Source: a virus. From it: a stretch of DNA of 20,021 nucleotides. The position numbers were made by a program, and so were the translations under genes. Location: IMG/VR virus record IMGVR_UViG_3300027797_000189, positions 1-20,021 of that record. One strand, 5' to 3'. Below the pieces are notes generated by a model that worked only from the letters and a program-made list of their open reading frames with translations, did no database searches and was not told the DNA's origin. Numbering within the stretch: the first letter of the stretch is position 1; each line of letters starts with the position of its first letter. This document shows, piece by piece, positions 3 to 18,318 of the stretch.

Positions 3-398
3 CCAGAAGCAGAAGCACCTAAGCCAGGAGCAGAAGCACCTAAGCCAGGAGCAGAAGCACCTAAGCCAGGAGCAGAAGCACCTAAGCCAGGAGCAGAAAC
101 ACCTCCAGCACCAGGCGCTGAAGCCCCAGCCGCAGAAGAAAAGCCAAAGGCAGGAAAAAACCCAATGTTTAAAGATCCTACTAAGTTTAAAGCAGAGTGG
201 GACAAATATGTTGAAGGGCAGAATGCTAAAAATAAAGCCAATGGTATGGGCGACTTTAAATTAATTAGTGAGCCTAAACTATTAGCAGTACTTAAACAGA
301 TGTGGATGAGTTCTGGAGGTACCAAAGCAGAATCTAAGAAAAATAAAGCTACTCCCATAGTAGAAAATAAAAAGAAAAAATTGGCGGTGTTTAAATGA
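3..398 (+). CDS. Pro/Ala-repeat virion-type protein, 5' end outside the window
   Basis: The frame is open from the left edge, so this is the C-terminal part (131 codons visible plus stop) of a longer protein. It starts with four exact heptapeptide repeats (AEAPKPG type), then a Pro/Ala/Glu linker. A short globular segment follows, with the pattern F-x8-W-x2-Y (from MFKDPTKF to WDKYV), and the tail is Lys-rich, ending KLAVFK. A similar F-x-W pattern occurs in the next gene ([15 protein letters not shown]), and both genes carry the same repeat DNA, so the two look like related mosaic proteins. The stop overlaps the next start (ATGA, 395-398), which suggests translational coupling. A methionine at 165 could be called as a start, but the repeats upstream are in frame without a stop, so it is more likely internal. 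Function is unknown; a structural or head-associated role is inferred only from composition and context. Confidence 0.75.
   Translation, partial: PEAEAPKPGAEAPKPGAEAPKPGAEAPKPGAETPPAPGAEAPAAEEKPKAGKNPMFKDPTKFKAEWDKYVEGQNAKNKANGMGDFKLISEPKLLAVLKQMWMSSGGTKAESKKNKATPIVENKKKKLAVFK
9..92 (+). repeat. Four exact 21-bp tandem repeats in coding DNA
   Basis: The unit gcagaagcacctaagccagg(a) is repeated four times without change, encoding AEAPKPG. A fifth, diverged unit follows and merges into a segment (93-115) that also occurs in the downstream gene around 2972-2994. Perfect identity at the DNA level implies recent expansion or homogenisation. Confidence 0.9.
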
Positions 399-3300
399 AA
401 ATAAGTCAACTCTCAAGGCCTACAGTAATAGAGGCTATGATAATTAATAAGTCTATGTTCTCTAAGAGAAAATTATATGAAGGACTACATGGCGAAAATT
501 TACGTAGTGTTATGTTATGGGAAAGTGTTGGTAAAAAATTAATTGAAGCAGAGTTAACTCCGGATCAAATAACTCAAATTTTTCAAAACGCTGAACAAGG
601 TGCCACCGACGCTGGCGGCAATCGCACAGGCCTAGGCCGAGCCAAAGATGCCACACAAGCAGTTAATAAAGCATGGGAAGATCTTAAAACTAAAATTCAA
701 AGTAGCGGCCCCATTGAAAAGGTCGACTCGACATATGACAGTGCAATATCTAAAATTGAAGCAGGCCTAGGCGGCCCCGACAATGCAATTAGTAAAATTA
801 TCATGGGTTATAGGAAATTTGCTAAAGAACATCCTGTTGCACAAGGTTTTATATATGCGGTACTAATTGCGGCGGCAGGTATTACTGGCGCAGGCCTAGG
901 CGGTGCCGCACTTCTTGCGCTGTTCAAACTAGTAGACAAATTGTTACAAGGTGAAAAGTTCTCCAGCGCGGCATACTCCGGAGTCAAGACTGGTGCAATG
1001 GCATACGGTGCAAGCCAACTTGGCGACTTAATCAAAGGAGGCAAAGCAAGCGCAGACGCCGCTACCAATGCCGCTACTGACACTGCCAATGCCGCTACCA
1101 ATGCCGCTACTGACACTGCCAATGCCGCTACTGATGCACTTCAAAACTACGCAACAGATCCTAATTTAAGTCCTGTTGCACAGAAATTGGCCGCAGATTT
1201 AGCGTCGGGCAAAAATGTTAGTGGCACCATGGAGTTTTTACGTAAGTCAATCGCGGCCGCGGCAAAAAGAGCAGATGTGTTAGGTCCTACTGCTGATGGA
1301 ACAGCTAATGCGGCAGAAGCAACTTTTGGAAGTTTACAAGGACTAATGAAGACGGCCATTGAAGCTGGCATTAAAGAATCAGTTGAATTATCTGAGTCTC
1401 AGATTACTAGAATATTTGTCATGGTTCAACGACGTCAGTTAAACGAAGGCCCATGGGATTCTATTAAAGCTGGCGCTGGCAAAGCGGCCGACTGGGCAAA
1501 GACTAAAGGTAAAAATTTAACTACGACAATCACAGCTGACAAGTTAAATTCATTATGGAAAAAAGCAGGTAGTCCAACAGATAGTAATGCAGTGGCGGAT
1601 GTATTGCAACAAAATGGTGTTGCCCCTGACATAGTTACAAAAGTTTATGCTGATATGAAAATTGAAGCGCCTTCTGCTCCAACGGCCGCGGCCGCTGACA
1701 ATAAAATAGAACCAACGTTGGATGCAGACGCACCCGCAGTCGCAACTCCTCCTGGTGCTGAACCTACTGCTGGCGCTGATGCGGCAAAACCAGGTGCTGA
1801 AACTCCTGCTGGCGCTGATGCGGCAAAACCAGGTGCTGAAACTCCTGCTGGCGCTGATGCGGCAAAACCAGGTGCTGAACCTACTGCTGGCGCTGATGCG
1901 GCAAAACCAGGTGCTGAACCTACTGCTGGCGCTGATGCGGCAAAAGCCGACGCCCCAGCGTCAACAGGATCAGTATTTGATAATTATAATCAATTACAAA
2001 CACAATGGAATGAATTCTTAGATGATGACGGATCTGTTCCACCACAACTACGTGGGGTATTGCGTGATATTCTTTTAACTGCACTTAAAACAGTTGAAGG
2101 TAAACAGATTTTTGCCAATGCAGAAAATTATTTGTTAGAAGATAGATTAGACGAATTAGGCAACCGACCTAACGATTCTAGTGATCCGGGAACCGCCGGC
2201 GGTGTAGCAAACGCAGTTGGTAATTTAAAAGATAGACGTAAACAACGTGCCGACACATTAGCTAAAAATCAAGCACCTGCACCAGAAGCGCCAGCACCAA
2301 CTCCTGCGCCAGGTCCAACTCCTGCACCAACTCCTGCACCAACTCCTGCGCCAACTCCTGCGCCAACTCCTGCGCCAACTCCTGCGCCAGGCCCAACTCC
2401 TGCACCAGGTCCAACTCCTGCACCAACTCCTGCGCCAGGTCCAACTCCAGCACCACCAAAGCCAGGAGCAGAAACACCTCCAGCACCAGGTGGCGCCCCA
2501 GCTGGCGGCGGTGACATGTGGGATCGAATAGTACAAGGATTTTATAAATCTGGCCGTATTACTACTAATCCGCGCGACAACGTAGCACAAAAAATAGGCA
2601 ACTGGGCAAGTAAACAAAGTGCGGCCAGTGATGACGGTGTTACTATTGGATATGATAGCAAACCTGGTACCGGTGATAACTTAGACGGTGATAAAGGAAA
2701 TACATATAACGGTGGCAATGGCGCCGGCGGCGGCGATACCCGCAGACAAGGATTTAACTTTGGCGGTAATGGCGGTGGTAATGGCGGTGGCAATGGCGGT
2801 GGTAATGGCGGTGGTAATGGCGGTGGTAATGGCGGTGGTAATGGCGGTGGTAATGGCGGTGGTAATGGCGGTGGTAATGCACCAGCACCAGAAGCACCTA
2901 AGCCAGGTGTTACACCAGTACCAGCACCAGAAGCACCTAAGCCAGGTGTTACACCAGCACCAGCACCAGGAGCAGAAACACCTCCAGCACCAGGAGCAGA
3001 AACACCTCCAGCACCAGGAGCAGAAACACCTCCAGCACCAGGAGCAGAAACACCTCCAGCACCAGGCAAGAAGAAACGCACCGGCGGCCGCAAAAAAGGT
3101 GCCGGCCTAAGTAATACACCTAATGCTATACGAAAGCGTGATGCTAGGGCACAGGCGGCTGGCAAATCACCAGCTGATGCAGGAGCAAATGCATTTGGCC
3201 AAATGACAAATACATTAGGCGGAGCAAATAAATCTGCATCAAGTACAGGTGGTACAACAACGCAGACTCCTACTGGACAGGTACATACTGCCAATCCAGC

Positions 3301-3532
3301 TAATCCAAATCAGACTGCACCTGCGGCAGAGCCAACTACTGCACCAGAGGCAGAACCGCAAGTTAAGGCTCCACGTCAAAGTCTAAAACAACGATTGGCG
3401 GCTAAAGGTCAAGGAGCAAAAGAAAGTATAGTAATTACAAATGAACCAGTAATGGAACAACGTAACGAAATTCTCGAAAGTTTTAATCGCATGAACAAAG
3501 CAATTATTAAAAATGCAGAGAGCAAAAAATGA
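395..3532 (+). CDS. Large modular low-complexity virion-type protein (1045 aa)
   Basis: Residues 1-60 are an MKISQLS-type N-terminus with several L-x-E sites. A conserved-looking globular module (about 53-215) contains a long hydrophobic Ala/Gly-rich stretch (about 146-180, [16 protein letters not shown]) that could insert into membrane. Residues 220-247 are AAT repeats. A second module (about 332-421) contains KNLTT and KKAGSPTDS. Five [13 protein letters not shown] repeats, a W/F-rich helical segment, a Pro-Ala tract, a (GGGN)9 tract, [13 protein letters not shown] and PGAETPPA repeats follow, then a Lys-rich C-terminus. From memory, the two globular modules resemble proteins of unknown function in marine T4-like phages. 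The long disordered linkers joining small modules suggest a virion or ejected protein. The start overlaps the previous stop (ATGA) and its own stop overlaps the next start. It is not a typical tape measure protein. Function is not assigned. Confidence 0.85.
1058..1132 (+). repeat. 33-bp tandem repeat, two full copies plus a partial copy
   Basis: The unit encodes [11 protein letters not shown]; copies at 1058-1090 and 1091-1123 are identical, and a partial copy follows. It forms an Ala/Thr/Asn linker after the hydrophobic module of the 1045-aa protein. Confidence 0.85.
1751..1945 (+). repeat. Five 39-bp tandem repeats ([13 protein letters not shown])
   Basis: Five 13-codon units run head to tail. 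Copies differ only at the first base of the unit region (cct/cca) and at a two-codon variant (PT versus TP), arranged PT, TP, TP, PT, PT. This pattern suggests duplication of blocks rather than single units. Confidence 0.9.
2272..2490 (+). repeat. Pro-Ala (PTPAP) low-complexity tract
   Basis: Irregular repeats of act-cct-gcg/gca-cca encode PTPAP with PGP interruptions. The tract is probably an extended, stiff linker. The repeat leaves several other frames open on both strands, giving spurious long ORFs. Confidence 0.85.
2762..2878 (+). repeat. (GGGN)9 tract, 12-bp tandem repeats
   Basis: One GGN unit (2762-2770) is followed by nine GGGN units of 12 bp (2771-2878), nearly all ggcggtggtaat with a single ggc for ggt change. 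The tract encodes a flexible glycine/asparagine linker. Near-identity suggests slippage or recombination-driven length variation. Confidence 0.92.
2882..2959 (+). repeat. Two 39-bp repeats ([14 protein letters not shown])
   Basis: Two 13-codon units differ in the last codon. They share the PEAPKPG core with the 21-bp repeats at the left edge of the window, in the preceding gene. Confidence 0.88.
2966..3061 (+). repeat. Four exact 24-bp repeats (PGAETPPA)
   Basis: Four identical units run head to tail at 2966-2989, 2990-3013, 3014-3037 and 3038-3061. The same unit occurs once in the preceding gene (about 90-112), so repeat DNA is shared between adjacent genes. Confidence 0.9.
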
Positions 3533-9860: not shown

Positions 9861-10586
9861 ATGAAATTAACAGATTTTTCAGTAAAACCGCAGACTAAAC
9901 TGCAACAACTTAGCTCTTATCTTAAAGAGCAGTTTGGCTATAGCTTAAAGCAAGGCAATGTTGATAGTACTAAACTACGCAACATTTTACAGCAAGTAGA
10001 GCGCCAACAATGGGACATTAGTTGTTCTATTAGAAACTATCAGAATGACCCACGCTATATTAAAAGTGTAATGGTCGGCGAAAGCATTAAGATTATGTTA
10101 AGCGAAATCGCTCCTAAGCGTAGCGACAGTCGAAATGTACGTCCTAAGCGTGTAGACGAAAGCATTCGCGGCCTAAAAATGTTAATGGAACAAGATCTAC
10201 AACAAGCGGAAGTTTTACTTGCCGCTAAAAGTATGGTTGGTGATTTACAAGACATGGCTGAAAAAATTGCTAAGTTACAAACCGAAACATTAATGGCTTT
10301 AACTGAACGCATTAAAGAAGTATTTGGCACAGCAGAAGCAGAAGCATTTAACAGTTCAGTTGAAGGTGGATTACAACAAGTGCTAGATACACTAAAACAA
10401 AATCATGAAAGCCTAGGTAATGCCGTAGCAGTTCTAAGTGGCGAAGAACAACCTGATATGGCCGCTGACGCTGGCGCAGTACCAGCTGACGATATGGGTG
10501 TTGAGCAACCAATGGGCGACGAAATGGCTGGCGCACCAGCCGCGGCCGGTCCAGAAGAAGAAGCAATAGGCCGCGAGTTAAAGTAA
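9861..10586 (+). CDS. Helical late phage protein (241 aa)
   Basis: Almost entirely helical, with a run of charged heptads from about residue 110 (QAEVLLAAKSMVGDLQDMAE) to 190, ending in an acidic Ala/Pro/Gly-rich tail (about 195-241). Similar helical proteins with an AEVxLAAK motif occur in marine T4-like phages, from memory, without a firm function. The composition would fit a scaffold-like or virion protein. The start is MKLTDFS, behind its own late octamer, and the stop overlaps the next start by one base (TAATG). Confidence 0.78.
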   Translation: MKLTDFSVKPQTKLQQLSSYLKEQFGYSLKQGNVDSTKLRNILQQVERQQWDISCSIRNYQNDPRYIKSVMVGESIKIMLSEIAPKRSDSRNVRPKRVDESIRGLKMLMEQDLQQAEVLLAAKSMVGDLQDMAEKIAKLQTETLMALTERIKEVFGTAEAEAFNSSVEGGLQQVLDTLKQNHESLGNAVAVLSGEEQPDMAADAGAVPADDMGVEQPMGDEMAGAPAAAGPEEEAIGRELK

Positions 10587-10924
10587 TGAAACTGTTTGAG
10601 TTAAACAGCTCGTATGTCAATGAACTTAAAGATGCTGTCTTGAATCTATTGTATACTGCAAGTGCAAACGGGCAGACTACAGTAGATATGCACGACATGG
10701 TATCTGATTTAAGCAACGATGGCTACTACGTTAGCCCTCGCGATATAATTCAGTTGCTAGACGGCGCTCCTAGTATTAAGACTGTTAATGCAAAGGAAAT
10801 AGAAATCGACGACGGCATTAACGATACTGGAGATGAAATGGCATCGGGTGCTGACCAAAAGGATGCCGCGGCAGACACAGTAGCCGATATGGCACAAAAA
10901 CAAGCGCAACAAGGTATTCAATAA
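10586..10924 (+). CDS. Small acidic phage protein (112 aa)
   Basis: Residues 9-60 form a compact helical domain (ELKDAVLNLLYTASANGQTT, then VSDLSNDGYYVSPRDIIQLL) that could be a small winged-helix-like fold. The C-terminal half is acidic and disordered (DDGINDTGDEMASGADQKDA). The start overlaps the preceding stop and the stop overlaps the next start, so the three genes from 9861 form one coupled unit. Function is unknown. Confidence 0.75.
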   Translation: MKLFELNSSYVNELKDAVLNLLYTASANGQTTVDMHDMVSDLSNDGYYVSPRDIIQLLDGAPSIKTVNAKEIEIDDGINDTGDEMASGADQKDAAADTVADMAQKQAQQGIQ

Positions 10925-11235
10925 TGTTAACAGCAAAAGAAGCAAGACTAAGGGCCAGAGATAATACAACTATTCATAGTGAAATTTCGGCTATCGAATC
11001 GGCAATTCTTGTTGCAGTTGATAACGGGTTATTAACAGTTGCCGTTACCACAAGTGTAATGACATCTGGTCCCGACGATGAAATTTATTGGAATGTTTGG
11101 CAAGGAAATTCCACAAATTATACGTTCCAAGACCAAATGGATCAAGTTATTAAATATTTTGAAAACTTGAACTATAGCATTGAGCAATTGACTGCTCAAT
11201 CAGCTAATACGTTTATTTGGCAAATAAGTTGGTAA
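10924..11235 (+). CDS. Small conserved-type phage protein (103 aa)
   Basis: An N-terminal helix (LTAKEARLRARDNTTIHSEI) is followed by ESAILVAVDNGLLTVAVTTS, a polar middle region and a final strand ending FIWQISW. Small proteins with this helix-strand layout and a terminal I-x-W are common in marine T4-like phages, from memory, with no known role. It is the last gene of the 9861 unit, and the sigma70-type promoter of the exonuclease begins 3 bases after its stop. Confidence 0.75.
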   Translation: MLTAKEARLRARDNTTIHSEISAIESAILVAVDNGLLTVAVTTSVMTSGPDDEIYWNVWQGNSTNYTFQDQMDQVIKYFENLNYSIEQLTAQSANTFIWQISW

Positions 11236-11237
11236 GG

Positions 11238-11266
11238 TTGACATATTGTAGTTAGTTTGCTACAAT
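11238..11266 (+). promoter_or_regulatory. Sigma70-type promoter of the exonuclease gene
   Basis: TTGACA (11238-11243), 17-bp spacer, TACAAT (11261-11266). The -35 is perfect and the -10 matches 5 of 6. The expected transcription start (about 11272-11274) coincides with the ATG at 11272. Confidence 0.78.
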
Positions 11267-11268
11267 AT
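11243..11268. promoter_or_regulatory. 9-bp dyad overlapping the exonuclease promoter, candidate operator
   Basis: Arms ATATTGTAG (11243-11251) and CTACAATAT (11260-11268) are perfect inverted repeats separated by 8 bp. They fill the spacer and cover the -10 box. There is no T tract after it, so it is not a terminator. Confidence 0.6.
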
Positions 11269-11271
11269 ACA

Positions 11272-11949
11272 ATGATACCAATTAATCCTCCTGTAGAATA
11301 TAAACCTTTATCACGTGCTGAACTAAACGGCAAAAGACTATACGCAACTCCTGACGGTAATAAATTGCCCAGCGTAACAACAATCCTAGATAAAACAAAA
11401 GACAAAACATTCTTAATTGAATGGCGTAAACGAGTAGGCGATGCCGAAGCAACTCGTATTAGTACAGAAGCCGCCGGCCTAGGAACACTACTACATACAC
11501 ATTTAGAAAACTGGATCATTGGTAAAGAAAGACCTAGTGGTAATAACCTAGTACATCAGCTTGCTAGAGATATGAGCGAAGTTATTATAACCAAAGGACT
11601 ATGCGATGTAACCGAAGTATGGGGTCAAGAAGTAGGACTATATTATCCAGATTTATATGCAGGTACAACCGATTTAATTGGACGATACAAAGGTGTACCT
11701 GCAATCATTGATTATAAAACAACAAAAAAGCCTAAAAAAGAAGAATGGGTGGAAGATTATTACTTACAATGTTGTGCCTATGCTCATGCACACAATAAAT
11801 TATATGACACAGATATAAGGAAATCTGTAATCTTTATGGTGTCTAGAGACTTAGAATGGCAATGTTTTGAGCTCGAATTAGATAAGTTTGACACCATGAG
11901 TGAGAAGTGGGCTAATCGTGTACAGGAGTATTATGCCAAGTTCGCTTGA
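11272..11949 (+). CDS. PD-(D/E)XK exonuclease, RecB/Cas4-like (225 aa)
   Basis: A single nuclease domain contains the family signature in order: G71-x3-H75 (GTLLHTHLE), D134 (YAGTTDLIG), D147-Y-K149 (IIDYKTTKK) and Q166-x3-Y170. These are the metal ligands and catalytic lysine of RecB-like nucleases. It is predicted to be a cytoplasmic DNA exonuclease in phage replication or recombination, or in host DNA breakdown. An N-terminal YATPDGNKLPSVTTIL element matches my memory of the marine T4-like phage version. The only candidate starts are TTG at 11257, which is upstream of the promoter's start point, and ATG at 11272; no Shine-Dalgarno precedes the ATG. It is the only gene here with both a host-type promoter and an apparent operator. 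No helicase or Cas gene is adjacent. Confidence 0.88.
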   Translation: MIPINPPVEYKPLSRAELNGKRLYATPDGNKLPSVTTILDKTKDKTFLIEWRKRVGDAEATRISTEAAGLGTLLHTHLENWIIGKERPSGNNLVHQLARDMSEVIITKGLCDVTEVWGQEVGLYYPDLYAGTTDLIGRYKGVPAIIDYKTTKKPKKEEWVEDYYLQCCAYAHAHNKLYDTDIRKSVIFMVSRDLEWQCFELELDKFDTMSEKWANRVQEYYAKFA

Positions 11950-11955
11950 TAAATA
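11948..11955 (+). promoter_or_regulatory. T4-type late promoter octamer (GATAAATA)
   Basis: It overlaps the TGA stop of the exonuclease (TGATAAATA) and lies 18 bases before the ATG at 11974; the AGGAG ribosome site is at 11963-11967. It is the same octamer as at 5599. Confidence 0.6.
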
Positions 11956-12669: not shown

Positions 12670-13100
12670 AGCAAATTTGGTCGTTAAGCGCCGCCGGCCG
12701 ACTACGAGAGTGGCGCAAATTAAGAATAGGATTAGAGGAACTTTCTTCTAACCACCTTAGTACTGCATACACTTGGTGGACACAAGCACCTGCAATTCGT
12801 AGGACATTTGACCCATGGAAAATTGATACTTGGCCCAACCCATGGAATCTTTTATATTCTCCTGATTTTTGTCCAAACAGTATTATATTAGGAATTTACT
12901 ACTCACTTAAACTTGCTGATATTGATATAAACAATATAAGCCTTTGTATAGTTAACGATAAAGAACAAAGGCATAATTGTTTGGCAATTAACGTTGACAA
13001 TCAAACGGTATTCCTTTATAATAAGCATCTAGCATACGACTCACCGGAAATTGAAATATTAAAAATATTTGAGTCCGATGAATTAGAAAAATTATTTTAA
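12654..13100 (+). CDS. Unknown phage protein with GTG start (148 aa)
   Basis: The start is GTG at 12654, overlapping the fibre-type gene by 16 bases; no ATG or good ribosome site is available, so translation is probably coupled. The sequence is rich in Trp and Pro at the N-terminal half (YTWWTQAPAIRRTFDPW, then DTWPNPWNLL). It has DFCPNSIILGIYYSL in the middle and RHNCLAINVDNQTVFLYN near the end. A Cys followed by a His in a short beta hairpin is loosely reminiscent of transglutaminase-like proteins, with Asn where Asp would be expected; I would not assign that. Its 3' part contains the promoter for nrdA. Confidence 0.72.
   Translation: MEISIKQIWSLSAAGRLREWRKLRIGLEELSSNHLSTAYTWWTQAPAIRRTFDPWKIDTWPNPWNLLYSPDFCPNSIILGIYYSLKLADIDINNISLCIVNDKEQRHNCLAINVDNQTVFLYNKHLAYDSPEIEILKIFESDELEKLF
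12994..13022 (+). promoter_or_regulatory. Perfect-consensus sigma70 promoter upstream of nrdA
   Basis: TTGACA (12994-12999), 17-bp spacer, TATAAT (13017-13022), inside the coding region of the preceding gene. The expected start is near 13029, giving a leader of about 144 bases before the nrdA ATG. Confidence 0.8.
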
Positions 13101-13172: not shown

Positions 13173-15512
13173 ATGACAAAAAATATATATGTAACAAAAA
13201 GAGACGGAAGCGTTGAGCCTTTGGCAGTAGAAAAATGGCAGGCACAGGTAGCAAAAGTATGCGCCGGCATTGCAGATGTTAGCCAAAGCATGATTGAGAT
13301 CAAAGCGCAACTGCATTTTTATGATGGCATTACTACTAAAGAAATTGACGGCGTCACCTTACGTGCTATTGTCGATTTGATTGACGTTGAATCAAACCCA
13401 GACATTGGACATGTTAACTATCAATACGTGGCAGGTAAGCAACGTTTAAGTATGCTACGCAAAGATGTATATGGCAGTTATACTGTTCCTCACTTATATG
13501 AAATAGTAAAAACAAACGTAGCCACTGGATTGTATACCGCAGAACTTCTTGAATGGTATACTGAAGAAGACTGGAATCGAATGAACGACATGTTGGATCA
13601 TGAAAAAGATGAACAATATGGATATGCGGCTATTGAACAACTGATTGAAAAATACCTAGTTAAAAATCGTAGCACAAAACAAACATATGAGACACCGCAG
13701 ATTAGATACATGATAGCGGCCGCTACGGTGTTTCATAAAGAAGAACCTAACACGGCCCGTATGCGTTACATAAAGGAATACTACAATGCCGCAAGTGATG
13801 GATTATTTACCCTTGCTACTCCCGTCCTTGCTGGTCTCGGTACCCCTACTAAGCAATTCAGTTCGTGCGTACTTATTCGCAGTGATGATGACTTGGATAG
13901 TATTTTCGCTAGTGGCGAGATGATGGCCAAGTATGCCAGTAAACGTGCTGGCATTGGTTTGGAAATTGGACGATTGCGTCCATTAGGATCTCCTATCAGA
14001 GGCGGTGAGATCATGCACACAGGTATGATACCTTTCTTGAAGAAGTGGTTTGGCGACCTGCGTAGTTGCAGTCAAGGAGGTATTCGTAATGCAAGTGCTA
14101 CTGTATTTTATCCTATTTGGCATCATCAGTTTGATGATCTTATTGTACTTAAGAACAACCAAGGAACAGAAGAAACCCGAGTCCGTCATATGGATTATGG
14201 GGTTGTGCTTAGTGCTTTCTTCTGGAGACGATTCAAAAATCGAGAAGACATAACATTCTTTGATCCCAACGAAGTACCAGATTTGTACGAAGCATTTTAC
14301 AAAGACACTGCATTGTTTGAAGAACTATATGTAAAATATGAAAAGCAGAAAGGTCTACGTAAAAAGACCATGAGTGCCGAAGAAGTGTTCAAGAGTGGTA
14401 TACTAAAAGAACGCACAGATACGGGTCGAATATATCTCGTATTCATTGATAATGTAATGAACCAAGGACCTTTTGATCCCGAGTACCATACGATTTATCA
14501 AAGTAACTTGTGCTGTGAGATCCTATTACCCACACGTTCATTTAAGCGATTAGACGACGATAGTGGACGCATAGCGTTATGTACACTGGGATCTATCAAC
14601 TGGGGATCGTTCCGTAATCCAGAGGATATGCGTAGGGCCTGTAGGATTCTACAACGTAGCCTGTGTAACATTCTTGACTATCAAGATTTCTTGTCGATAC
14701 AAAGCAAACTGTCTAACGATGAGATACAACCACTAGGCATTGGTGTTACTAATCTTGCCTACTGGCATGCCAAGCGTGGGCTCAAGTATGGCGAGAAAGA
14801 TGCACTACAGGATGTTAAGACATGGATGGAACATCAAGCGTTCTACTTAACAGAAGCTACAGTAGAGCTGGCCAAAGAACGTGGACCATGTACCGAAAGT
14901 CATAAAACTAGATACGGTCAAGGCGTCTTTCCTTGGGAACTACGTGCCAAGGGTGTTAATGAACTGGCAGACTTTGCTCCTGAACTTGATTGGGAAACAC
15001 TACGTAGTAATATGAAACAGTATGGTGTACGCAATGCCACATTGATGGCTATTGCCCCTGTTGAAAGTTCAAGTGTTGTAATCAACTCAACCAACGGCAT
15101 TGAAATGCCCATGAGCTTGATTTCAGTTAAAGAATCAAAGGCAGGAAGTTTTGTACAGGTTGTACCTGAGTATCATAAACTAAAAAACAAATATCAAATG
15201 ATGTGGGAACAGAAAGACTGTGATGGCTATTTGAAAACAGCCGCGGTACTTGCTGCCTATGTTGATCAATCAATTTCAACTAACACATTTTACAATCCGG
15301 CACACTTTGCAGATCGTAAAGTGCCAACTACATTGATTGCTAAAAATTTAATGCAAGCACACATGTGGGGATTGAAAACATTCTATTACAGCTTAATTAA
15401 CAAAGCAGGCAGTAAAGCAATGGCTGAAGCAACTCCCGAAGTACACTATAACGGGTTCCATAACGAAAGAGAATTAATCGAAGACGAAGACTGCGAGGCA
15501 TGTAAATTATGA
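13173..15512 (+). CDS. nrdA: Ribonucleoside-diphosphate reductase, class I alpha subunit
   Basis: It reduces ribonucleoside diphosphates to deoxyribonucleotides, supplying dNTPs for phage replication. An ATP-cone-like N-terminus (VTKRDGSVEPLAVEKWQAQV) is followed by the ten-stranded barrel. The redox cysteines are C232 (FSSCVLI) and C470 (ALCTLGS). The active-site N445-L-C447-C-E449 carries the radical cysteine C447, and Y738-Y739 (TFYYS) form the radical transfer pair. All sit at a constant offset of +7 to +8 from E. coli NrdA. The C-terminal CEAC (C774, C777) is the shuttle pair, reduced by thioredoxin or glutaredoxin. At 779 aa it is full length for the class. It overlaps nrdB by ATGA, giving stoichiometric coupling. 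A perfect sigma70 promoter at 12994 suggests early or middle expression. Confidence 0.98.
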   Translation: MTKNIYVTKRDGSVEPLAVEKWQAQVAKVCAGIADVSQSMIEIKAQLHFYDGITTKEIDGVTLRAIVDLIDVESNPDIGHVNYQYVAGKQRLSMLRKDVYGSYTVPHLYEIVKTNVATGLYTAELLEWYTEEDWNRMNDMLDHEKDEQYGYAAIEQLIEKYLVKNRSTKQTYETPQIRYMIAAATVFHKEEPNTARMRYIKEYYNAASDGLFTLATPVLAGLGTPTKQFSSCVLIRSDDDLDSIFASGEMMAKYASKRAGIGLEIGRLRPLGSPIRGGEIMHTGMIPFLKKWFGDLRSCSQGGIRNASATVFYPIWHHQFDDLIVLKNNQGTEETRVRHMDYGVVLSAFFWRRFKNREDITFFDPNEVPDLYEAFYKDTALFEELYVKYEKQKGLRKKTMSAEEVFKSGILKERTDTGRIYLVFIDNVMNQGPFDPEYHTIYQSNLCCEILLPTRSFKRLDDDSGRIALCTLGSINWGSFRNPEDMRRACRILQRSLCNILDYQDFLSIQSKLSNDEIQPLGIGVTNLAYWHAKRGLKYGEKDALQDVKTWMEHQAFYLTEATVELAKERGPCTESHKTRYGQGVFPWELRAKGVNELADFAPELDWETLRSNMKQYGVRNATLMAIAPVESSSVVINSTNGIEMPMSLISVKESKAGSFVQVVPEYHKLKNKYQMMWEQKDCDGYLKTAAVLAAYVDQSISTNTFYNPAHFADRKVPTTLIAKNLMQAHMWGLKTFYYSLINKAGSKAMAEATPEVHYNGFHNERELIEDEDCEACKL

Positions 15513-17600: not shown

Positions 17601-17906
17601 ATGCCAGCTGTAGCTAGACAAGGCGACCCAACAACAACCGGACATGGGTGTGATGCCACTTCGACTATAACAGGACCAACCGGCGCCAGTGCAAGAGTAT
17701 ATGTCAACAGTATAGCAGTTGAATGCCAAGGTGATCCAGTGGCTTCTCATACTATTCCGTCCGGTCGAAATTGTGTTGCTCACTCAGCAGTTATTAATGT
17801 TGGGTCAGGCACAGTTAAGGTAGGTAATAAACCGTTAGCACGAGTCAGCGACTCAACCGACGGCGGTGCCATCACTGCTGGCAGTCCCAACGTATTTGCA
17901 GGGTAA
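17601..17906 (+). CDS. PAAR-domain tail-spike tip protein (101 aa)
   Basis: It opens with MPAVARQGDPTTTGHGC, the standard PAAR start, and ends with VGSGTVKVGNKPLARVSDS and ITAGSPNVFAG, the second PAAR-type repeat. Candidate zinc ligands are H15, C17, H50, C58 and H61 (ASHTIPSGRNC-VAH). PAAR proteins sharpen the tip of the central spike; T4 gp5.4 is the phage example, and related proteins cap VgrG in type VI secretion. At 101 aa it is a single domain without a toxin extension, as expected for a phage structural tip. It sits among metabolic genes, 9 bases after the preceding stop, so it must be read from an upstream promoter. Confidence 0.92.
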   Translation: MPAVARQGDPTTTGHGCDATSTITGPTGASARVYVNSIAVECQGDPVASHTIPSGRNCVAHSAVINVGSGTVKVGNKPLARVSDSTDGGAITAGSPNVFAG

Positions 17907-17907
17907 A

Positions 17908-18318
17908 ATGAAAAAATTCTTATGGAAATGTTTAGGCTTCCTTAGTTTGGGAATGGCCTATGTTGGATTAGTTACACCGGGCATCCCCTACTCAATCTTT
18001 GTGGTATTTGCAGCCTACTGCTTTAGCAAGGGCAGTGAGCGTATGCATGCTTGGATTTACAATCACAAACTGTTTGGACCGTTCCTTACTAACTGGGGTG
18101 AAAAGCGTGTGTTCCCACAGAAGATGAAATACTTCATGTTGTTCATGATGACAACCAGTTTGATCACCATGTGGTTGACAGCAGTCCCAGTTCGTGGTAT
18201 AATATACACAGCAGTGTTTATGATGCTGGTGGCCATATGGGCTTGGAGATTCCCCAGCTCAGTTGAAGAATATGACAACAGAAAAGCACAAGGTAAAAAA
18301 ATTGGATGGATTAAATGA
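17908..18318 (+). CDS. YbaN/DUF454-family inner membrane protein (136 aa)
   Basis: The pattern matches the DUF454 (YbaN) family: FLSLGMAYVGLVTPGIPYSI, then VFAAYCFSKGSERMHAWI, NHKLFGPFLTNWGEKR and a second hydrophobic half (MLFMMTTSLITMWL, IIYTAVFMMLVAIWAWRFP). It has about four membrane segments. The family is common in bacterial genomes and has no known activity, so its presence on a phage suggests acquisition from a host. The start is ATG at 17908, one base after the PAAR stop; an upstream in-frame ATG at 17866 would lie inside the PAAR gene and is unlikely. Its coding sequence contains a perfect sigma70 promoter, and its stop overlaps the next start (ATGA). Confidence 0.85.
   Translation: MKKFLWKCLGFLSLGMAYVGLVTPGIPYSIFVVFAAYCFSKGSERMHAWIYNHKLFGPFLTNWGEKRVFPQKMKYFMLFMMTTSLITMWLTAVPVRGIIYTAVFMMLVAIWAWRFPSSVEEYDNRKAQGKKIGWIK
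18175..18203 (+). promoter_or_regulatory. Perfect sigma70 promoter with extended -10
   Basis: TTGACA (18175-18180), 17-bp spacer, TATAAT (18198-18203), preceded by TGG (18195-18197) as an extended -10. It lies inside the DUF454 gene. The expected start is near 18210, about 105 bases before the first oxygenase gene. Confidence 0.82.

Follow-up and report, generated by a model that had tools for sequence, protein, structure and literature searches.

Hairpins that enclose a promoter and inhibit the gene behind it have been described for the T4 genes e, soc, 49 and I-TevI, as well as for Aeh1 mobE (PMC3014915, PMC2988022). For e, soc and I-TevI, the gene is a late one carried on early transcripts, from which it is freed by a late promoter nested in the hairpin (PMC3014915, PMC2988022). 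Leaderless mRNAs, such as that of lambda cI, and -10 boxes directly adjoining open reading frames in Deinococcus-Thermus have been reported separately (PMC9031893, PMC12340547). A search of largely open-access literature for a silencing hairpin that encloses a leaderless promoter returned no example. The locus considered here, the start of an exonuclease gene, lies in a 20-kb virus record that was analysed as one stretch of 20,021 nucleotides (the window). The gene and its surroundings comprise the following features.

10586..10924, + strand: upstream gene, related to RaK2 ORF136 and PA5oct EST35_0238 (virion structural), by iterated HMM search
10924..11235, + strand: directly upstream gene, related to PA5oct EST35_0239 (virion structural), by iterated HMM search
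11238..11243, + strand: -35 box TTGACA, 6/6 consensus
11261..11266, + strand: -10 box TACAAT, 5/6 consensus, preceded by TG
11272..11274, + strand: ATG start codon and predicted leaderless transcript start, from spacing, protein alignment, upstream in-frame stops in relatives and lack of a Shine-Dalgarno (SD) sequence
11272..11949, + strand: exonuclease, PHROG_298, PD-(D/E)XK type, MGME1-like, profile match E 9.7e-57
11948..11955, + strand: GATAAATA, a motif resembling T4 late promoters, placed after the exonuclease and ahead of the next virion gene (11974), by pattern scan

The assignment of the exonuclease is consistent across several lines. Compared with solved structures, the family profile has its best match in the human mitochondrial genome maintenance exonuclease MGME1 (E 2.5e-16). 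The residues H75, D134, D147, K149 and Q166 are invariant among 16 sequences, and the D...DxK core is present. A 70-kb contig (G001/L005) encodes an exonuclease with 100% amino-acid identity and carries the same upstream DNA as the window.

The promoter TTGACA-N17-TACAAT, pointed out in a preliminary description of this DNA, agrees with the consensus at 11 of 12 bases and has TG before the -10 box. As the ATG at 11272 sits only 5 nt past the end of the -10 box, a sigma70-type start is expected on or beside its A; with a 5-nt gap the transcript could also begin at 11273-11274, in which case the AUG would be lost from the message. No SD sequence occurs within 18 nt upstream of the ATG. AAGG at 11234-11237, the SD-like tetramer closest to the ATG, precedes the predicted transcript and is separated from the ATG by about 35 nt. 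The start codon itself is backed by the alignment of homologous proteins at this position and by in-frame TAG codons just upstream of it in close relatives. The alternative TTG start at 11257 is not favoured, because such a TAG separates the corresponding position from the ATG in these relatives. Two perfect TTGACA-N17-TATAAT sequences were additionally noted at 12994-13022 and 18175-18203 of the window, each within a gene or at its end; the former could be a candidate promoter for nrdA at 13173.

The leaderless arrangement was examined in 94 distinct exonuclease homologues with upstream DNA, most of which have a sigma70-type promoter at the same place. A homologue was classed as leaderless when its promoter matched at least 9 of 12 consensus bases and the -10 box ended 5-9 nt before the start. 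This layout was found in 57 of the 94, at distances of 5 nt (8 homologues), 6 nt (28), 7 nt (17), 8 nt (3) and 9 nt (1). Distances of 10-11 nt do not occur, and in 18 homologues the leader is longer. An SD-like tetramer is present in 1/57 leaderless homologues vs 16/18 leadered ones (p 3e-13). The leaderless start persists among homologues down to about 35% identity, and on the homologue tree the leaderless and leadered states have interchanged at least seven times. The suggestion that the exonuclease message is leaderless and made from a sigma70-type promoter, with no SD sequence, is thus well supported by the comparison of homologues, while the exact 5' end is predicted.

The same spacing recurs at other genes. 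In the contigs of ten relatives, the distance from -10 box to start peaks at exactly 6 nt (16 genes, with no more than 8 at each of the other distances), and a broad hump is seen at 18-24 nt too. Boxes 5-6 nt before an ATG occur at G004:62000, G006:12881, G007:20532 and G014:109890, at G007:26958, and at G006:46242 and G010:1560, which we take from their sequences to be primase, UvsW-like helicase and DexA-like exonuclease genes. The peak at 6 nt points to a phage-wide class of leaderless genes, of which the exonuclease would be a member. In another phage, a minus-strand promoter (L107, 2928-2958) shows the same layout of dyad and promoter, with a gap of 5 nt to the ATG of a 301-aa gene that is unrelated to the exonuclease.

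The position of the gene is equally characteristic. RaK2 ORF136 belongs to a virion structural PHROG, and the structural annotation of PA5oct EST35_0238 and EST35_0239 rests on mass spectrometry. The stop codon of the directly upstream gene (11233-11235) is 36 nt ahead of the ATG. Downstream of the exonuclease follows a gene with an Mtd_N domain and weak matches to head proteins, and then nrdA, nrdB and glutaredoxin. The order of structural gene, exonuclease, one or two genes and nrdA is common to RaK2, GAP32, XaC1 and PA5oct; the exonuclease of the examined cyanophages and Ackermannviridae phage overlaps phoH or uvsY and lacks such a promoter. A terminator scan listed no terminator-like site on the + strand between 5998 and 17266 of the window. 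With structural genes upstream and this terminator-free stretch, late read-through into the exonuclease is expected. Of the T4-late-like NATAAATA motifs, the + strand of the window has four (5599, 6501, 11948 and 19854) and the - strand has none, but the coding strand is A-rich, so that this bias is at most suggestive of T4-like late promoters. Elsewhere in the window, 395-3532 encodes a protein of 1045 aa that contains extended proline/alanine and glycine/asparagine repeats.

The promoter overlaps an inverted repeat formed by ATATTGTAG (11243-11251) and CTACAATAT (11260-11268). The repeat is exact over 9 bp with an 8-nt spacer and, as first described, covers the promoter spacer and the -10 box. 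A scan allowing up to three mismatches revealed this single copy of the dyad in the window. Perfect repeats of at least 9 bp with loops of 3-12 nt number three in the window, whereas Markov copies contain 0.8 on average. When the -35 and -10 boxes were held, the chance of a dyad this good was 0.00056 (0.056% of random fillings); based on this value and on covariation in a sister subclade (see below), a chance dyad was rejected. In RNA reading through from upstream, a larger structure is predicted to build on the dyad as its core.

11243..11268, + strand: hairpin core, the 9-bp dyad (exact repeat), with an RNA stem of 10 bp (11243-11252 / 11259-11268)
11227..11283, + strand: full predicted read-through RNA hairpin, with the A and U of the AUG in its 3' arm (folding)

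The full hairpin has a predicted folding energy of -22.3 kcal/mol (z -5.8), and none of the shuffles folded as well. Both promoter boxes lie within it, and the predicted transcript start lies behind its 5' arm. The probability of being unpaired in the read-through RNA is 0.003 for the A of the AUG and about 0.006 for the U, in contexts of 69 to 251 nt, vs 0.985 and 0.772 for the same bases in the leaderless RNA. The preliminary description had recognised the dyad only and proposed that read-through transcripts would form a hairpin that could block translation. The hairpin is supported, and it exceeds the proposal both in size, extending over 11227-11283 and including the AUG, and in generality; the block itself we infer. 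An intrinsic terminator was rejected at this site, as a U-run is absent after the stem and the terminator scan did not list it. Directly before the exonuclease of Agrobacterium phage Atu_ph07 (L136, upstream of 3001), a large inverted repeat was observed that is near-perfect, has TTTTT behind it and looks like a terminator rather than a nested promoter.

Absence of the dyad from close relatives had been named as evidence against the initial reading, and the nearest relatives of the window retain it. Hairpins of similar strength and different sequence were found in L006, L126, L012 and L007; in L007 the -35 box pairs with the codons around the AUG (-22.2, z -7.6). Bases of the AUG are also buried in L149, L145, L185, L170 and PA5oct. 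Significance was evaluated against shuffles in which the -35 box, the -10 box and the ATG were held fixed. Under this procedure, and ignoring kinship, leaderless homologues have a mean z of -1.71, with p < 0.05 in 25/57 (about 3 expected) and p < 0.01 in 14/57. Structure at p < 0.05 is found in 3/18 leadered and 1/19 remaining homologues (kinship ignored). Among other leaderless genes of these phages, the mean is -0.28 and 3/20 are significant (kinship ignored), so a hairpin as a general trait of leaderless genes in these phages was rejected as a rule. Leaderless homologues behind structural genes average -2.32 (20/37 significant) vs -0.58 elsewhere (5/20), again ignoring kinship. Leadered homologues behind the same structural gene average -0.5, and position alone is therefore not the explanation. 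Moreover, once the shuffled baseline is subtracted, the sense RNA is stabler than the antisense RNA (p 1e-4, kinship ignored), which points to a function in RNA and not in double-stranded DNA.

These comparisons bear on the possibility that the leaderless promoter is real and the hairpin functionless, a chance product of AT-rich and partly self-complementary promoter sequence. In its favour, about half of the leaderless homologues, among them L009, L013 and L035 (65-66% identity), are without significant structure, and tree-corrected association tests gave no significance, having six independent contrasts and no power. It is opposed by the promoter-fixed shuffles, the control with other leaderless genes, the strand asymmetry and the covariation, and we regard it as very unlikely. 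In L009, as in L010 and L011, the exonuclease is found behind a gene resembling window 17866-18318 and not behind the structural gene; these phages retain the leaderless promoter and lack the hairpin.

One subclade, that of L198 with 31 distinct sequences, shows clear covariation. In the stem around the -10 box, AU alternates with CG and CG with GC at two pairs. Cells with both sides changed number 16 vs 7.7 in shuffles, and the covariation score is 0.163 vs 0.078; neither value was reached in 500 shuffles. All five sequences of the clade that includes the window have the 10-bp core paired, with two pairs changed on both sides. This conservation holds for the core only, so pair-by-pair conservation of the outer helix with the AUG was rejected for this clade. 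Overall, a promoter nested in a predicted start-codon hairpin recurs in dozens of related phages with the letters changed and the pairing kept.

The persistence of pairing is also relevant to the first interpretation of the dyad as a DNA operator; in the form considered here, a dimeric repressor bound to TTGTAG-N8-CTACAA over the spacer and -10 box would shut the promoter. The location is the usual one for an operator, the core TGTAG/CTACA is almost constant within the window's clade, and TGTAG-N8-CTACA promoter dyads exist in unrelated phages, one of them ahead of an XRE-type gene. A search for further dyads and for a phage repressor, as originally advised, revealed neither in relatives' records that are mostly partial. 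The dyad core occurs once each in G001, G002 and G007, always at the exonuclease, and in none of the other scanned contigs; no HTH_3 protein was detected in G001, G002, G004, G007 and PA5oct (mostly partial records), with 14/14 control genomes positive. The arms are unrelated in sequence between sister lineages while their pairing persists, and both sense-strand bias and covariation favour RNA over operator DNA. The operator interpretation is thus not borne out and appears improbable. Since similar promoter dyads occur in unrelated phages, the dyad might still serve as an operator in the window's clade alone, which would leave the other lineages unexplained. The dyads in unrelated phages have the general form TTGAC-N4/5-TGTAG-N8-CTACA. 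As a side observation, those of the type TTGACA-N4-TGTAG-N8-CTACAATA in L116-L119, L121, L122, L127, L130, L132 and L133, among which the one in L132 precedes the XRE-type gene, look like a shared operator type.

An RNA hairpin could also aid translation or serve the upstream message, by bringing an SD sequence near the AUG, by coupling translation to that of the upstream gene, or by protecting or processing the 3' end of the upstream mRNA. Hairpins bring a distant SD sequence close in T4 genes 25 and 38, an inner stem closing the gap would place AAGG (11234-11237) close to the AUG, and the upstream stop codon is only 36 nt from the ATG. Against this, AAGG is not retained in L006, L126 and L012, and the AUG is itself paired in the window, as are at least two of its bases in 42/57 leaderless homologues. 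The stems of the L198 subclade (5-7 bp) would moreover be poor substrates for double-strand processing. We consider a helping role of this kind unlikely.

The reading we favour, and hold to be probable, is that the exonuclease has an early sigma70-dependent leaderless message and that the hairpin silences the gene on late read-through RNA. A host sigma70-type early promoter would give a transcript starting from or beside the A of the ATG, and thus a leaderless exonuclease mRNA; the exact 5' end and the early timing we infer. The promoter would be nested in an inverted repeat that acts as RNA and not as an operator. Polymerase entering from the upstream late virion genes would transcribe the 5' arm of the hairpin as well, and the read-through RNA would fold with the start codon in the 3' arm and, having no SD sequence, leave the exonuclease untranslated. 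The leaderless transcript, which lacks the 5' arm, would stay open. As a point against silencing, the upstream stop codon at 11233-11235 is so close that a ribosome terminating there could disrupt the outer stem at its base and then initiate anew. Under the silencing model, the nested layout would allow an early DNA-processing gene to sit within a late structural block and be made solely from its own promoter.

Leaderless messages of phages, e.g. lambda cI, are usually viewed as isolated curiosities. Here, a leaderless start is kept at one gene, alternates with a leader carrying an SD sequence, and is paired with a hairpin that is possible in read-through RNA only. Leaderless translation may thereby gain a concrete regulatory use, in that a gene's own transcript would be told apart from a passing one. 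The wider proposal is of a widespread and previously undescribed phage layout, in which a leaderless sigma70 promoter lies in a start-codon-hiding hairpin, places an early gene inside a late virion operon and alternates in evolution with a leader and Shine-Dalgarno sequence at the same gene; we see this generalisation as evenly balanced. The layout is directly testable in the cultured phage PA5oct.

Among described phages, RaK2, GAP32, XaC1, 121Q and PA5oct resemble the window in having structural genes, then a sigma70-type promoter and then the exonuclease, with nrdA near the exonuclease in RaK2, GAP32, XaC1 and PA5oct. What sets RaK2, GAP32, XaC1 and 121Q apart from the window is a short leader that carries an SD sequence (13-17 nt, three measured), and the hairpin signal is absent in the three of them tested. 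Conversely, the PA5oct exonuclease, EST35_0240, is near-leaderless (7 nt) with its AUG in a stem. Lambda cI and the Deinococcus-Thermus genes share with this locus an AUG at or near the 5' end (predicted here), a -10 box directly before the open reading frame and the lack of an SD sequence, whereas a hairpin against read-through is not described for them in PMC9031893 and PMC12340547. In principle, the locus resembles T4 e, soc and I-TevI: an initiation region hidden by a hairpin on longer transcripts alone, as predicted here, and a promoter inside the hairpin that yields a 5'-truncated translatable message. The T4 messages keep their SD sequence, whereas that of the exonuclease is predicted to be leaderless and without one. 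Their promoters are of the T4 late type (TATAAATA), whereas the exonuclease has a sigma70-type TTGACA/TACAAT promoter and TATAAATA is absent at the site. Likewise, the T4 class comprises late genes on early or middle transcripts, whereas the exonuclease is a presumed early gene behind relatives of virion structural genes. As it has neither the late-type promoter nor the late gene on early transcripts, we do not file it as a member of that class; most likely, its layout represents the principle of T4 e, soc and I-TevI in mirror image and in leaderless form.
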